IMG/VR virus record: IMGVR_UViG_3300021090_000386
Location: 1-22,810 of that record
Source of the DNA: a virus
Strand: one strand, 5' to 3'
DNA: 22,810 nucleotides
Shown here: positions 976 through 20,972 of the stretch, piece after piece
Position numbering within the stretch: the first letter of the stretch is position 1
Layout of the letters: each line of letters starts with the position of its first letter
Notes under the pieces: model-generated
What the model saw: only the letters and a program-made list of their open reading frames with translations
Databases searched by the model: none
Told to the model about the DNA's origin: nothing
Program-made: the position numbers and the translations under genes

Positions 976-2856
976 ATGAGTGACACCGGGTCAAGGATTA
1001 CCCCGGAACACCGCGCTTACCTGAACCGCCACGCGATCACTGACGAAGTGATCGACCGCCACGGAGTCCGGTCCATTTCGGACCGTGACGAACTCCCCAG
1101 GAGTATCGCAGAACTGGCCTACTTCACGCCCGCTCCCGGGATTCTCTTCCCGGTCAGGATGCCGAACGGCAAGGACAGTTCCAGGTACCGGCCGGACAAC
1201 CCGGCACTGGACGGAGAAGGGCGAAAGGCCAAGTACATCGGGCCTGCCGGAGTGAGCACCGTCAACATGGTGCGTACCGGCCCGATCGTTCCGTCGTCGC
1301 TCAACGGGAAACCGGCCCACTTCATCAACATGGACGGCTTCGACAAGATCCTGTTCGTGGAGGGGAACAAGCAGGTCCTGGCGGCCGACTCCTACGCCCC
1401 GGGCGATTACGCGGTGATCGGAGTTCACGGATGCCGTGCATGGTCCGGCGCTGATTTCTCGTTCGTGAGCGGCCGTGACGTGTTCGTGGCGTTCGACTCG
1501 GATGTGTGGAACAAGTCCAACCCGGACGTTCCCGATGCCGCAGAGAAGTTCTCCGTGGAGCTGGTGGAGGCCGGGGCCGCATCTGTGCGGTTCGTATTCG
1601 TCCCTGGAGACCAGGGGACGGGCCTGGACGACGCCCTAGCCCTGATCGACCCCGGAGGCCGCACGGAGGCTCTCAAGAGCTGGCTCGAAGAAGCGGGACC
1701 GCTGACGCAGGAGAACGAGGGGGAGCCGTTCGACTACGACGGCCCCTATGAAGACCGTGTCAAGATCAAGGCCCGTGACCTGTACGTCAACCAGCGCGCT
1801 CGTGGCCTGGTGGACGACCGGATAGCCAGAGAGACCGGCCGGGCCGTGGACTGGGAGTCACGCGCTCACAACGGCGCTGACTGGCTGGACGTGAGCGAGC
1901 CGGAGCCGAAGCCGCTCTGGGGCACGCCGGACACGCCTCTCTGGCTTCCTGGGGAGTCGCTGACCATCGTCGGCCCTCCCAGTGTCGGCAAGTCCACACT
2001 GGCCCACGCGGTGATGTGGGGCGCGCTGGGGCTGACCCCGGACCTCCTTGACTTCCCGATCGAGGCCATGGAGGACGGCGGAATCCTGTACCTGGCCATG
2101 GACAGGCCGAAGCAGATCAAGCGCGCCATGGCCAGGTTCCTGCGGGCGCACCCCGACCGTCAGGACGAGATCACCACGGTTCTCCGTGAGCGGCTCACGA
2201 TCTGGGAGGGACCACTTCCCGGAGACCCGACGGCGGACAAACGGCTGTTGATCAGCATGGCCGAGAAGTTCGGCCGGACACGCATCGTCGTGGACTCGCT
2301 GAAGGACATCATCCCGAACGCCAGCGACGAAGCGAAGGCGGGCAGATACAACATGGCCCGTCAGGAGGCCCTGGCCGAAGGCTTCGAGTGGATCGAGCTG
2401 CACCACAACCGGAAGTCGGGGGCGGAGAACAAGGAGCCGAACACTCTTGACGACGTCTACGGCTCGCGGTGGATCACGGCCGGAGCCGGATCGGTCCTGT
2501 CCCTGTTCGGCCAGCCCGGTGACATCGTCCTGAAGCTGGCCCACCTCAAGCCGCTCGGGGAGCCGATCATGCCCACGCAAGTGGCGATCACCCGTATCTC
2601 GGGGGAGATGACCGTCTACGAGAAGACGACACCCCTGGACATCCTCAGGGCGTCAGGGGTTCAGGGCCTGACCGTCGAAGATGCGGCCCGGTCCATGTAC
2701 GGGGTTCTCGGGAACCGGAAGCTGACCCCGAACGAAGTTGAGAACACCCGGAACAAGCTCAACCGGATGGTCAGAGACGACCAGGCCGAGAAGCACCCGA
2801 AGGCCGAAGGCCCGGTCAGGTACCGGGTCAAGGACATCGAAAACCCGTGGTTATGA
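976..2856 (+). CDS. TOPRIM-helicase replication protein (bifunctional primase/helicase type)
   Basis: This is the probable phage replication initiator. I chose the ATG at 976 because AAAGGA precedes it; an in-frame ATG at 892 overlaps the XRE stop (ATGA) and would add 28 residues. In the 626-residue form, a TOPRIM-like module covers roughly residues 120-230, with the glutamate in ILFVEGNKQVL (about 129) and the acidic pair in VFVAFDSD (about 174-176). A RecA-like ATPase follows, with Walker A GPPSVGKST near 333-341, a Walker B-like RIVVDSLKDI near 436, and a histidine-rich ELHHNRKSG motif typical of RepA/AAA_25 hexameric helicases. The C-terminal 70 residues look like a winged-helix domain. 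TOPRIM-helicase fusions in this family prime and unwind DNA at the origin. A strongly structured repeat region follows directly. The last sense codon is TTA, rare in Streptomyces. Confidence 0.85.
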   Translation: MSDTGSRITPEHRAYLNRHAITDEVIDRHGVRSISDRDELPRSIAELAYFTPAPGILFPVRMPNGKDSSRYRPDNPALDGEGRKAKYIGPAGVSTVNMVRTGPIVPSSLNGKPAHFINMDGFDKILFVEGNKQVLAADSYAPGDYAVIGVHGCRAWSGADFSFVSGRDVFVAFDSDVWNKSNPDVPDAAEKFSVELVEAGAASVRFVFVPGDQGTGLDDALALIDPGGRTEALKSWLEEAGPLTQENEGEPFDYDGPYEDRVKIKARDLYVNQRARGLVDDRIARETGRAVDWESRAHNGADWLDVSEPEPKPLWGTPDTPLWLPGESLTIVGPPSVGKSTLAHAVMWGALGLTPDLLDFPIEAMEDGGILYLAMDRPKQIKRAMARFLRAHPDRQDEITTVLRERLTIWEGPLPGDPTADKRLLISMAEKFGRTRIVVDSLKDIIPNASDEAKAGRYNMARQEALAEGFEWIELHHNRKSGAENKEPNTLDDVYGSRWITAGAGSVLSLFGQPGDIVLKLAHLKPLGEPIMPTQVAITRISGEMTVYEKTTPLDILRASGVQGLTVEDAARSMYGVLGNRKLTPNEVENTRNKLNRMVRDDQAEKHPKAEGPVRYRVKDIENPWL

Positions 2857-3100
2857 GGGGGTTGGGAGGGGGTTGGGAGGGACCAACGGGCTCCCAACTC
2901 GTCCCAACTCCGATCAAGGAATCCCCAGGTCAGAGGCTCCCAACGGATTTCAGGGGCTATTTCCCAACTCGGCCACCAACTCAACCAACTCGATCAAGGG
3001 GCTTGCTGGTCAGGGGCCCCAACCCGTCTACCAACTCAACCAACCAGGCCATTCCAACTCCCCGACCCCCCTTAAAGGGGGAGGGGTTGGCGGTAAGGAT
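2857..3100. other. Candidate replication origin: G-quadruplex motif, CCAACTC repeats and hairpin
   Basis: This 250-base gene-free stretch follows the replication gene. Five G-runs at 2857-2881 separated by one- or two-base loops (GGGGGTTGGGA twice, then GGG) form a strong G-quadruplex motif. The heptamer CCAACTC occurs seven times (2894, 2904, 2964, 2976, 2985, 3031, 3054). An imperfect repeat with a period of about 80 bp is marked by CGATCAAGG at 2911 and 2991 and GGTCAG at 2928 and 3008. GTTGGGAG at 2872-2879 can pair with CTCCCAAC at 2891-2898. Direct repeats next to an initiator gene are typical of iteron-like origins. The assignment as origin is inference. Confidence 0.5.
3054..3090. repeat. 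GC-rich hairpin at the end of the repeat region
   Basis: A perfect core of CCCCCTT and AAGGGGG separated by one A (3067-3081) sits within a longer imperfect stem. CCAA plus CCCC on the left (from 3054) pairs with GGGG plus TTGG on the right (to 3090), with small bulges. It could be a single-strand initiation hairpin or a terminator separating the replication gene from the genes that follow. There is no T-run, so a classic intrinsic terminator is less likely. Confidence 0.5.
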
Positions 3101-3106
3101 CATGAA

Positions 3107-3370
3107 ATGACCGACCCGAAGACCCACCCAGAGATCATTCCCCAGCACTACCCGATGTGGGTCCACGAGTGGAGGCCGGGGCCGGGCGACGGGCACCACC
3201 GGTTCCTCCCGATCATCGGCTGGGTATGGCTGGACGGTCCTTACCTCCAACCCGTGGTCATCGCCGACACGGGGGCGCTCCCCTACGAGCGCGACGACGG
3301 AGACCAGGGCTGGGACATAGTCGATCAACGGTTCATGAATGAGTACGACCAAGAGGGGAAACGACCATGA
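3107..3370 (+). CDS. Hypothetical protein (87 aa)
   Basis: The ATG at 3107 follows an AAGGAT site. The frame is open upstream to 2738, but that extension reads through the repeat region and overlaps the replication gene, so it is rejected. The product starts MTDPKTHPEIIPQHYPMWV and is rich in W, Y, P and D, with several short beta-like segments (HRFLPIIGWVWLDGPYLQPVVIA) and an acidic C-terminal half (DGDQGWDIVDQRF). There is no membrane anchor or recognised motif. It overlaps the next gene by four bases (ATGA), indicating a two-gene coupled unit that could be transcribed with the replication gene. It is a real gene by coding character and junctions, but its function is unknown. Confidence 0.7.
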   Translation: MTDPKTHPEIIPQHYPMWVHEWRPGPGDGHHRFLPIIGWVWLDGPYLQPVVIADTGALPYERDDGDQGWDIVDQRFMNEYDQEGKRP

Positions 3371-12130: not shown

Positions 12131-12586
12131 ATGTCCATCGACATCAACACGATCCTCAGCACCGTCAAGAGCCACGCGCAGAAGACGGGCTACTTCACGT
12201 CTGTCCTGCTTCACGAACCCAAGAACGCCCCTGCCGACTCCACCACGGCCGCCATCTGGGCCGACCGGGTCCGGCCGGTACGGACGTCCGGCCTCAACTC
12301 CGTGTCGGTCCTGCTGGTCCTGCGGGTCAGGCTCTACGCGAACATGTTGCAGGAGCCCCAGGACGCCATTGACGCGTCTCTGGCCACGGTGGCCGACGCA
12401 CTCATGACGGCCTACGCCGGAGACTTCGAGCTGGGTGGAGCCGTCCGGAACGTGGACATCTTCGGCACGTACGGCTTCGACTTCGGATGTGTCTTCGGGT
12501 ACCTGTCCCAGGACTCGGTTCTCTTCAGAACGGCAGAGATCACTTTGCCGATCGTGATCAACGATGTGTGGACGGAGACCGCCTAA
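12131..12586 (+). CDS. Tail terminator/completion protein (putative, 151 aa)
   Basis: The gene starts four bases after the neck-protein stop and ends in a TAATG overlap with the first tail-tube gene, so it is translationally coupled. The product begins MSIDINTILSTVKSHAQKTG, has a long strand region (NSVSVLLVLRVRLYANMLQE), the helix DASLATVADALMTAYAGDF, and ends with beta strands FGYLSQDSVLFRTAEITLPI. An alpha/beta protein of about 150 residues immediately before the major tail protein is the standard position of the tail terminator (gpU/gp17-like), a hexameric ring that stops tube polymerisation. The assignment rests mainly on position and size. Confidence 0.7.
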   Translation: MSIDINTILSTVKSHAQKTGYFTSVLLHEPKNAPADSTTAAIWADRVRPVRTSGLNSVSVLLVLRVRLYANMLQEPQDAIDASLATVADALMTAYAGDFELGGAVRNVDIFGTYGFDFGCVFGYLSQDSVLFRTAEITLPIVINDVWTETA

Positions 12587-13326
12587 TGGCCAAGCAGAGT
12601 GGTATGGGCGGCAACTTCTACGTCGCCGGTCGCAACCTCACGGGAGACGTCGGCTCACTGTCGCGTGTCGGAGGCGGCCCCGCGACCATCGACGTGACGT
12701 CCATCGACAAGTTCGCCATGGAGAGGTTGGGGGGGCTCCGTGACGGAGCGGTGGAGTACACCGCGTTCTTCAATCCCGCCGTGTCCGGCACCCACGAATA
12801 CCTGGCCACGCTCCCCCGTACGGACGTGGCGCTGACCTACACCATCGGGACCACTCTGGGCAATCCGGCCGCTGCCATGATCGGTAAGCAGGTCAACTAT
12901 GACCCGACCCACAACCAGGACGGATCACTGACGTTCGGGGTTCAGGCCGTGGCCAACGCCTACGGCCTGGAGTGGGGGCGACAGCTCACGGCCGGGCTGC
13001 GCACGGACACGACGGCCACGAACGGCGCGTCCATCGACACCACGGCGTCCGTCTCGTTCGGCTGGCAAGCCTATCTGCAGGTCACCGCGATCACGGGAAC
13101 GTCCGTCACGGTCTCGATCGAGGACTCGGCCAATGACTCGGCCTGGACGGCGTTGTCGGGGGCGTCCTTCACGGCCGCGACCGGCGTCACGTTCCAGCGG
13201 ATAGCTTCGGCCACCCCCACAGCCACAGTCCGGCGCTACCTGCGGGCCGTGACCACGGGTACCTTCAACCCCGCCACCTTCTCAGTCGTGTTCGTGAAGA
13301 ACACCGTCCAGCACCCGGGGTTCTAA
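12586..13326 (+). CDS. Major tail (tube) protein 1, with extra C-terminal domain
   Basis: This 246-residue protein begins MAKQSGMGGNFYVAGRNLTG and shows the tail-tube pattern: ATIDVTSIDKFAMERLGGLR, a GAVEYTAFFNPAVSGTHEYL strand-loop, and NYDPTHNQDGSLTFGVQAVA. A paralogue with the same DKFAMERL and HGQDGSL motifs lies at 14018-14428. From about residue 145 this copy has an additional beta-rich domain (SVSFGWQAYLQVTAITGTSV to the end) absent from the paralogue, likely an Ig-like or carbohydrate-binding surface domain on the tail. Both ends overlap neighbours in TAATG junctions. The role as tail tube subunit is well supported; the decorative function of the extra domain is inferred. Confidence 0.88.
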   Translation: MAKQSGMGGNFYVAGRNLTGDVGSLSRVGGGPATIDVTSIDKFAMERLGGLRDGAVEYTAFFNPAVSGTHEYLATLPRTDVALTYTIGTTLGNPAAAMIGKQVNYDPTHNQDGSLTFGVQAVANAYGLEWGRQLTAGLRTDTTATNGASIDTTASVSFGWQAYLQVTAITGTSVTVSIEDSANDSAWTALSGASFTAATGVTFQRIASATPTATVRRYLRAVTTGTFNPATFSVVFVKNTVQHPGF

Positions 13327-14017: not shown

Positions 14018-14428
14018 ATGGCGAAGCAAACCGGTCTCGGGATGACCTCCCTGACTGTCGATGACAACAGCGGTTCGGGCCAGAACATCGTCAACGACGT
14101 CACGAACTTCGCGTGCTCCATGCCGCGCGCCGTTCAGGACACCACGGGTGTGGACAAGTTCGCGATGGAGCGGCTCCTGCTCCTGGCCGACTTCAGCGTC
14201 ACCCTGAACGGGGTGTTCAACATCACCGGCAACGCGTCTCACGACGTGTTCAAGACCGTCCCGTCATCGGCGGCGGTCAGCCGTACCGTGGTGGCCGTTC
14301 AGTCCGGGACCACCCTGACGGCCGAATGCCTGCTGACGGACTACAACCTCACCCACGGCCAGGACGGATCTCTCGTCTGGTCCGTGCCCGGGGTGCTGTC
14401 CAACGGCACCGCTCCGGCCTGGACGTAA
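14018..14428 (+). CDS. Tail-tube protein paralogue 2 (136 aa)
   Basis: The ATG at 14018 follows an AAGAAGGGTTAGG site. The product begins MAKQTGLGMTSLTVDDNSGS and parallels the major tail protein at 12586: MAKQ(S/T)G start, (T/S)xxDKFAMERL, a strand-loop region, and a HGQDGSL(V/T) segment near the C-terminus. It lacks the 100-residue C-terminal domain of the first copy. It may be the actual tube subunit while the longer copy is a decorated variant, or the reverse, or the two may assemble together. The DNA of the two genes is well diverged, so the duplication is not recent. It is followed by a small membrane-protein gene with its own AAGGAG site. Confidence 0.8.
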   Translation: MAKQTGLGMTSLTVDDNSGSGQNIVNDVTNFACSMPRAVQDTTGVDKFAMERLLLLADFSVTLNGVFNITGNASHDVFKTVPSSAAVSRTVVAVQSGTTLTAECLLTDYNLTHGQDGSLVWSVPGVLSNGTAPAWT

Positions 14429-19932: not shown

Positions 19933-20439
19933 ATGCCGTACCCGACATTCGTCGCGGGCGACCGGGTGACGGCCGCCCTTCTGAACGCGGGAAAGGTCGA
20001 GTTCGTCACGAACGCGGCCGGAGCGCAGACCAACGCCACGACCACCTTCGCCAATGCCACTGACCTTTCCTTCGCGGTGGAGGCCAACGCCCGGTACAAG
20101 ATTCACGTTCTTCTGGGGTACGACGCGCCAACGGCCACGGACATCAAATTTGACTGGTCGATGCCGTCGGGCGCGTCCACGAACCGGAACTGTGAGTACC
20201 TCGCGGCCGGTACCGCGACGAACATTGACAGCAACATGGCGAAGATCCGGCGCGGAGCCACCACGGTTGTTATCGCGGGTGGCCCGAACGCCACGGCTAA
20301 CGCCTTCAGCGTCTACGAAGAGGTCACGGACCTGATCACCGTGAACGCAGGAACTGCTCAGCTTCGCTTCGCCGCCAATGCGGCCGGTACCGCGACGCTC
20401 CAGGCCGACAGCGTCATCTACTACCAAAGGATTGCGTAG
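19933..20439 (+). CDS. Tail-tip protein, paralogue A (168 aa)
   Basis: The ATG at 19933 follows GAGGGGG. The product begins MPYPTFVAGDRVTAALLNAG and continues with a beta-rich body and the ending ATLQADSVIYYQRIA. It is clearly paralogous to the next gene: shared (V/F)AGxxVTAALLN, LxFxVEANARY, NAFxVYEDV-like and KADSVIYYQR(I/V)A motifs. The N-terminal AGDRVTAALLNAGKV-type segment is a common attachment motif at the start of phage tail proteins and fibres, through which they join the tail tip. The beta-sandwich remainder probably faces outwards. A minor fibre or tip decoration protein is the likely role; the ligand is unknown. Confidence 0.78.
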   Translation: MPYPTFVAGDRVTAALLNAGKVEFVTNAAGAQTNATTTFANATDLSFAVEANARYKIHVLLGYDAPTATDIKFDWSMPSGASTNRNCEYLAAGTATNIDSNMAKIRRGATTVVIAGGPNATANAFSVYEEVTDLITVNAGTAQLRFAANAAGTATLQADSVIYYQRIA

Positions 20440-20447
20440 GTGGCCCC

Positions 20448-20972
20448 ATGACGTTCCCGTCATTCCTGGCCGGGCAGACAGTCACGGCGGCCCTTCTGAA
20501 CTCCGGCCGGGTCGAAAAGGTGACGAACACAGCGGCACAGGACACAACGCTGACAACGTTCGTGGACGCGACCGACCTGGGTTTCTCGGTGGAGGCCAAC
20601 GCCCGGTACCGGGCAAGGGCTCTGATCGCCTATGACGCGCCCTTGTCCAACACTGACGGGGATATCAACTTCCAGTGGACCGGGCCAGCAGACGTCACCG
20701 TGACGAGACGCGTCACAGGCCTCGCGGTAACCAACACCACGAACATCGACGCCAACCTCATGAGCGTGGCCAGATCCCTGGGAACGGACGTCCGAGTCGG
20801 CGGTACGGCCGGGACGGACAACGCTTTTACCGTGTACGAAGACGTTATGGACATCACCGTCATCACGGCTGGGACGATTCAGTTCCAGTTCGCCGTAGGT
20901 ATTATCACGACTCCGCCAATTACAGCTACTGTCAAAGCCGATTCGGTCATCTACTATCAACGCGTCGCGTAA
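20448..20972 (+). CDS. Tail-tip protein, paralogue B (174 aa)
   Basis: The gene begins nine bases after its paralogue with a GTAGGTGG site. The product starts MTFPSFLAGQTVTAALLNSG and ends VKADSVIYYQRVA. N- and C-terminal segments match paralogue A closely, while the middle (TGPADVTVTRRVTGLAVTNT and TDVRVGGTAGTDNAF) differs more, the pattern expected if the exposed parts diversify while the attachment and core strands are kept. It is followed immediately by AAAGGAG of the next gene. The function is inferred as a second minor tail-tip protein, possibly forming a hetero-complex with A or giving alternative host recognition. Confidence 0.78.
   Translation: MTFPSFLAGQTVTAALLNSGRVEKVTNTAAQDTTLTTFVDATDLGFSVEANARYRARALIAYDAPLSNTDGDINFQWTGPADVTVTRRVTGLAVTNTTNIDANLMSVARSLGTDVRVGGTAGTDNAFTVYEDVMDITVITAGTIQFQFAVGIITTPPITATVKADSVIYYQRVA

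Follow-up and report, generated by a model that had tools for sequence, protein, structure and literature searches.

In the SaPI Rep/ori and SCCmec Cch2/ori systems, as described in PMC7581432, iterons lie downstream of the helicase gene or operon and are read by the C-terminal domain of the helicase. The region analysed here, positions 2857-3100 of a viral sequence of 22,810 bp (the window, meaning the whole stretch of DNA), is similar to that description in having iterons directly downstream of an initiator helicase gene, with a C-terminal winged helix as their putative reader. It differs in that the window's initiator, Rep, is DnaB/RepA-like with a RecA fold, whereas the same account (PMC7581432) presents Cch2 as an initiator helicase of 3'-to-5' polarity and likens it to SaPI Rep, and in that the window cassette has two extra elements, an 8-bp core within the array and a fixed hairpin at its end. 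A SaPI/SCCmec-like iteron origin is our best reading of the region, the likeness being one of anatomy only: the region would work like these origins and is not counted as one of them. According to PMC4234260, pRN1 also has its origin, with a stem-loop, downstream of a primase-helicase-winged-helix gene; unlike the window, it has a large stem-loop without iterons, an SF3 helicase and an archaeo-eukaryotic primase domain. Origins of extrachromosomal mycobacterial prophages have been tied to the repA gene, whose product, unlike the Rep of the window, carries an N-terminal helix-turn-helix, and the authors report that they saw no repeats in the stretches they looked at (PMC7157519). Our literature search for the core or for actinophage iteron origins gave no description of cassettes in which the iterons change around a recurrent core and a hairpin closes the array. 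Phage P4 (alpha protein/ori) and RSF1010 (RepA-RepB'-RepC/oriV) also bring primase, helicase and iteron-binding functions together at an iteron origin; RSF1010 has hairpin initiation sites as well and carries its functions on separate polypeptides, and the iterons and helicase family of P4 differ from those of the window. We know of no CAGGTCAG core in P4 or RSF1010.

The window comes from an IMG/VR virus record; its terminase, portal and capsid-protease matches are actinophage-like, and we describe it as a small actinobacterial virus. Its features in and around the region are as follows.

976..2856, + strand: rep, initiator/helicase gene (626 aa; stop codon 2854-2856)
976..2856, + strand: parts of Rep from profile matches and model, namely TOPRIM/DUF3854-like, DnaB/RepA-like AAA_25 helicase, C-terminal winged helix
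2623..2847, + strand: winged helix at the Rep C-terminus, the probable reader of the iterons (AlphaFold pLDDT 86.4, H-H-H-E-E)
2857..2881, + strand: G-rich block GGGGGTTGGGAGGGGGTTGGGAGGG, two inverted iterons; five G-runs with loops of 2, 1, 2 and 1 bases
2894..2900, + strand: iteron 1, CCAACTC, exact match
2904..2910, + strand: iteron 2, CCAACTC, exact match
2911..2935, + strand: core copy A, CGATCAAGG-N6-CAGGTCAGAG, 25-bp core
2964..2970, + strand: iteron 3, CCAACTC, exact match
2976..2982, + strand: iteron 4, CCAACTC, exact match
2985..2991, + strand: iteron 5, CCAACTC, exact match
2991..3015, + strand: core copy B, degenerate, CGATCAAGG-N6-CTGGTCAGGG, 80 bp after copy A
3031..3037, + strand: iteron 6, CCAACTC, exact match
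3054..3060, + strand: iteron 7, CCAACTC, exact match, in the 5' arm of the terminal hairpin
3054..3090, + strand: terminal hairpin with G/C-run stem and TTAA loop, 37 of 37 bases invariant in three window-family sequences

Rep matched the phrog_6012 DNA helicase (E 9.2e-68, residues 322-646 of a 656-aa reading, covering the helicase and the C-terminal part), the phrog_16213 primase (E 3e-27) and AAA_25 (E 8e-7), and a DUF3854 match fell slightly under the curated cut-off. MSDTGSR was taken as the start because in a close relative, L002, a stop codon lies right before this same start. The helicase part was modelled as a RecA fold of the DnaB/Twinkle/T7 gp4 type, the listed fold matches being mainly DnaB, Twinkle, T7 gp4 and KaiC, and the N-terminal TOPRIM region gave a model of poor quality; the alignments held 29 sequences for Rep and 26 for the winged helix. 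Solved folds nearest to the winged-helix model were generic winged helices (VIA Z up to 9.4), Foldseek returned no match for this domain at E <= 0.001, and the PDB sequence search gave no trusted match beyond P-loop stretches. At the level of predicted fold, Rep is an initiator with a DNA-binding domain. A search for plasmid relatives of three Reps found none, and a search of genome contigs for Rep relatives confirmed none.

Seven exact CCAACTC heptamers in 167 bases behind the replication gene had been reported in the initial annotation, and counting gave exactly this number. Only three more copies occur in the 22.8-kb window on both strands, so that 7 of 10 copies fall in one cluster. No shuffle reached a non-overlapping 7-mer count of seven, out of 5,000 dinucleotide shuffles each for 2857-3100 and 2894-3060 and 100 shuffles of the whole window; the cluster is beyond chance. 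The period of about 80 bp noted at the same time was also found, and corresponds to a duplicated 25-bp core, CGATCAAGG-N6-C[A/T]GGTCAG, at 2911 and 2991. The region is 61% G+C. It scored no Rfam family at the gathering score and no tRNA, and a loose pattern of three CCAACTC copies matched at least 120 stretches elsewhere, none of which, among those examined, encoded a Rep relative. A protein-coding reading (ORFs 2738-3370 and 2847-3110) was set aside, the L002 DNA behind the hairpin being unrelated.

Close Rep relatives were found on two IMG/VR contigs. L002 reaches 88% in its best segment; L003 and L004, at 95% and 98%, are opposite ends of a single contig of 23,264 bp, IMGVR_UViG_3300021090_000105, which is broken inside rep. 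About 16 Rep residues are missing between the ends of this contig, as for a circular or circularly permuted genome. The intergenic DNA of the window, L002 and L004 aligns, with the heptamers, both core copies and all 37 hairpin bases kept, eight exact CCAACTC copies in each relative, and a spacing of exactly 80 bp between the two cores in both. Absence of the repeats from relatives that keep rep had been named as evidence against an origin; the repeats are present in both. Similarity of L002 to the window stops right behind the hairpin (window position 3099), where an unrelated gene follows, and rep, array and hairpin therefore move as one module.

So that loci would not be picked for their repeats, viral contigs were searched with an alignment of the Rep helicase part, which is blind to repeats. 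The search gave 43 loci, collapsed to 38 families at 90% amino acid identity; the families of L277, L278 and L317 were not blind, because L270, L126/L127 and the window had entered the query alignment for their core, leaving 35 families as the blind part. Under a strict test (at least 4 copies, at most 350 bp behind rep or 450 bp before it, reached in 0 of 300 shuffles), 20 of the 38 families had a significant repeat array beside rep. Five or more copies stood beside rep in 16 of 38 loci, whereas control windows taken from other parts of these loci reached that number in 6 of 1,009 cases, and some of the control windows may be arrays in their own right (L287). Inspection added six families (L283, L287, L297, L306, L312 and L314), bringing those with an array to 26 of 38; L283 has degenerate iterons, and L306 few iterons with two cores and a hairpin. 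In L287 the iteron array, two cores and hairpin lie at 2250-2600, inside the 3' end of the rep ORF, which overruns the cassette, so that the cassette would be translated. The other 12 families, including records of 77-152 kb, among them those of the named mycobacteriophages Gaia, Redno2 and MiaZeal, showed no array by the strict test or inspection. Named phages with this Rep helicase are mainly mycobacteriophages, and the five inspected had no array.

The iteron differs in most cassettes (CCAACTC, CTATCACGG, CCTTCACG, AATCACG, TCCCACG, AGTCACG, GGTGCACGG, GGTACGG, GCCAGACG and others), and the place beside rep is kept while the iteron changes. Read in the direction of the iterons, most cassettes begin with iterons and a short A/T-rich tract, continue with C[A/T]GGTCAG, followed within a few bases by an iteron and then by further iterons, and finish with a hairpin. 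The cassette survey has 25 rows, with the window, L002 and L004 as one family. Over 21 of the 26 cassettes (L283, L287, L306, L312 and L316 were left out), iteron similarity followed winged-helix similarity (Mantel r 0.30, P 0.005), also with helicase identity removed (partial Mantel r 0.18, P 0.033, n = 21), and the converse, iteron against helicase with the winged helix removed, gave r 0.07, P 0.25. The signal is weak, but a winged helix that recognises the iterons would be expected to shift it in this direction.

The core C[A/T]GGTCAG was exact in 15 of the 26 cassettes and within one mismatch in 18, leaving eight (L280, L281, L283, L285, L303, L305, L310 and L312) with no core at that level. 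Beside rep the core is enriched 5-fold, with 22 copies in 30,063 bp vs 31 in 212,114 bp (Poisson P 2e-9), and exact CCGCAGGTCAG occurs in L290, L296, L297, L301, L309 and L318, 6 of the 26 regions examined for hairpins. The core alignment holds 18 sequences, among them L318, with cores and no clear array, and L305, whose copy has two mismatches; L287 and L306 are outside it. In these 18 aligned sequences, A/T enrichment covers only the 11 bases upstream of the core (58-65% A/T), with no long A/T-rich unwinding region. A pattern scan with the core returned three more viral contigs, with CTATCACGG repeats around the core in L126/L127 and CGTAAGTAT in L128. L126 and L127 have a diverged rep (34%) directly downstream of the core, not upstream, and in L270 GGTGTACGG repeats flank the core on both sides, with an AAA_25 rep downstream.

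Nearly all cassettes have an array closed by a hairpin with a G/C-run stem and an A/T-containing loop of varying sequence (e.g. GGGGGTCTTTATATAAGACCCCC and CCCCACCCCCCTATAAAGGGGGGGTGGGG), the hairpin of L291 being without the G/C run. The best hairpin per region, which was taken from anywhere in the region and is not always the terminal one, was reached by at most 5% of shuffles in 20 of 26 regions; the window, L317, L128, L318, L304 and L305 had no hairpin at this level. The strong terminal hairpin of the initial annotation exists in the window as a sequence, and its strength did not hold up: at -10.8 kcal/mol, it did not exceed the stability of shuffled versions of this DNA (z -0.68). In cassettes upstream of rep (L277, L278 and, in inverted orientation, L310) the hairpin is still 3' of the iterons, a position that speaks against a plain rep terminator. 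An exception is L311, where core and hairpin are inverted relative to the iterons as named.

Taking these data together, region 2857-3100 is probably the iteron-type origin from which the phage replicates, lying in cis right after the gene of its initiator. The initial annotation had proposed an origin here whose firing depends on DNA structure; its place beside rep is supported by the array in both relatives and by arrays in 20 of 38 families, and the structure-dependent firing is not. The GC-skew check suggested with it showed no clean origin switch at 3 kb, which counts against an origin here, as do the 12 families with no visible array, the eight cassettes with no core, the inverted core and hairpin of L311, the shortness of the A/T-rich tract, the cores away from rep, the weak Mantel signal and the unexceptional stability of the window hairpin. 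The conserved repeats, the cassettes that recur with changed iterons, the recurrent core and the predicted winged-helix fold were all obtained computationally, and beyond these we infer Rep binding, duplex opening, helicase loading and priming. Rep, as a DnaB/RepA-like ring helicase, would bind the CCAACTC iterons through its C-terminal winged helix, and the iteron-flanked core, a short A/T-rich tract followed by CAGGTCAG, would be the point where the duplex is bent, distorted or opened. The ring helicase could then be loaded at the opened core, with priming and extension by the TOPRIM part of Rep and/or by host primase and polymerase. The terminal hairpin may mark one fixed end of the cassette as a cruciform, a single-strand initiation site or a terminator. 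As a candidate rule, small actinophages with a DnaB-like Rep would have as their origin an iteron cassette touching the rep gene, which offers candidate origins for unmapped phages and matched Rep/iteron pairs for compatible actinobacterial vectors. The cassettes would also be a natural series for decoding winged-helix/iteron specificity, and the recurrent 8-bp core could be used to seek a host replication or architectural factor.

Other functions of the region were weighed against an origin. The model of the initial annotation, in which firing is set by competition between a G-quadruplex and the hairpin, starts from a real motif: the five G-runs with one- or two-base loops are present at 2857-2881, they form the sole four-run quadruplex pattern on either strand of the window, and they can pair with CTCCCAAC. 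The complementarity arises because the block itself consists of iterons, GTTGGGAG (2861-2868 and 2872-2879) being the reverse complement of CTCCCAAC. However, the fourth and fifth G-runs come from an 11-bp duplication private to the window, one extra inverted iteron that turns three runs into five, and L002 and L004, which keep the repeats and rep, have only three. The quadruplex is therefore not a conserved part and, judging from this alignment, is a local accident without a conserved role. Folding was also unexceptional relative to shuffles (z 0.10 for the whole region as RNA, in addition to the hairpin value above), and we rejected the switch, which is extremely improbable. Autoregulation by Rep, with the iterons as operators for rep's own or a neighbouring operon, the hairpin as a transcription terminator and no origin, would agree with a cassette that mostly comes after the stop codon of rep and is closed by a G/C-rich hairpin, and iteron Reps often regulate themselves too. 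We consider it unlikely, as most arrays are downstream of rep and away from its promoter, the polarity of iterons and hairpin is unchanged in the upstream or inverted cassettes of L277, L278 and L310, and the window hairpin lacks a T-run, with no terminator found there by the terminator scan.

A DNA packaging site (pac/cos) for terminase was considered because the core lies 0.3-1.0 kb from a small-terminase-like gene in the window, L126/L127 and L128, and about 50 bp behind the terminase large subunit (TerL) gene in L159 and L173. Yet TerL was found in the flanks of up to 3 kb at only 3 of 23 rep-linked cassette loci, by a tblastn search with five TerL sequences that divergent TerL could escape, and the array stays with rep all the same, which makes packaging very unlikely. 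Repeated repressor or partition sites occur in other phages, and an HTH_3 repressor-like gene is present at 647-895 of the window. A partition or stoperator-like repressor-binding site with no replication role nevertheless has to account for repeats gathered in one cluster and for arrays that hold their place beside rep across families, and there is very little chance that it is the right explanation. The iteron origin remains the reading we prefer.

The core was also found away from rep. With the loose pattern many matches looked like chance or coding sequence, and tighter patterns were used; exact cores occurred in 3 of 392 Streptomyces genomes and 1 of 394 Actinomycetes genomes (the seed genome included in each), with 0 for the control pattern. 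In matches to ATCAAGG-N6-CAGGTCAGAG, the free bases were mostly G before the pattern and R-A after AAGG, which is not expected by chance. Among 20 core-bearing loci, six (L126, L270, L128, L153, L211 and L214) had a significant array around the core and 14 did not. In the Streptomyces loci L132, L134, L136 and L137, the core lies, by eye, at the 3' end of a tyrosine-integrase-like ORF. Directly after the core, all four show by eye the apparent end of a superoxide dismutase gene. They are probably one integrated element family using that site. Other cores stand beside integrase-like genes, in L191 with a Pfam integrase match and in L211, L214, L133 and L244 by eye (a Pfam search with the L214 gene gave no match), or beside the terminase large subunit, in the L159 family and L173 and, 1.8 kb away, in L146. 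In L153 the core is beside a DUF3987 helicase, with repeats of its own. Core variants in plasmid records (pA387 12-34 and NZ_CP109351) were weak matches, with E about 6, and the match in L205, inside a gene, is probably due to chance. A primer described for the int-attP region of Streptomyces phage phiJoe contains CCCGCAGGTCAGAGC (PMC5311408).

Since the core is found away from any rep or array, it would act beyond Rep binding, and its position next to the integrase and terminase genes of actinobacterial elements that are unrelated to one another suggests a host-factor site. That the core (an A/T tract and C[A/T]GGTCAG, often GATCAAGG-R-A-N4-CAGGTCAGAG) is the site of a host-encoded actinobacterial protein recruited by unrelated mobile elements is a tentative idea, which we regard as rather doubtful. 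If true, the core would serve phage origins, integrases or attachment sites in prophage-like elements, and terminase genes elsewhere, and E. coli IHF has a comparable range of uses at ori, att and cos. Actinobacteria would then have a sequence-specific IHF-like factor, and the origins would be phage-specific iterons around one host-specific site.

Related sequences were seen in other records. One intergenic region of a 187-kb viral contig (L258, 127-149) and of two relatives (L259 and L260) has three GCAGGTCAGAG-like half-sites in alternating orientation, with no iteron array. In L261 (Gordonia phage KatherineG), the variant TCAAATCCCC[A/T]GGTCAG occurs twice at about 52152 of the record, together with further GCAGGTCA copies, in roughly the last 700 bp before the right end of the linear genome. 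Elsewhere in the window, 19933-20439 and 20448-20972 are neighbouring genes with similar products and look like a tandem duplication (19933-20972), and the products of 12487-13326 and 14018-14428 share DKFAMERL and similar stretches, apparently as paralogues near the tail genes.
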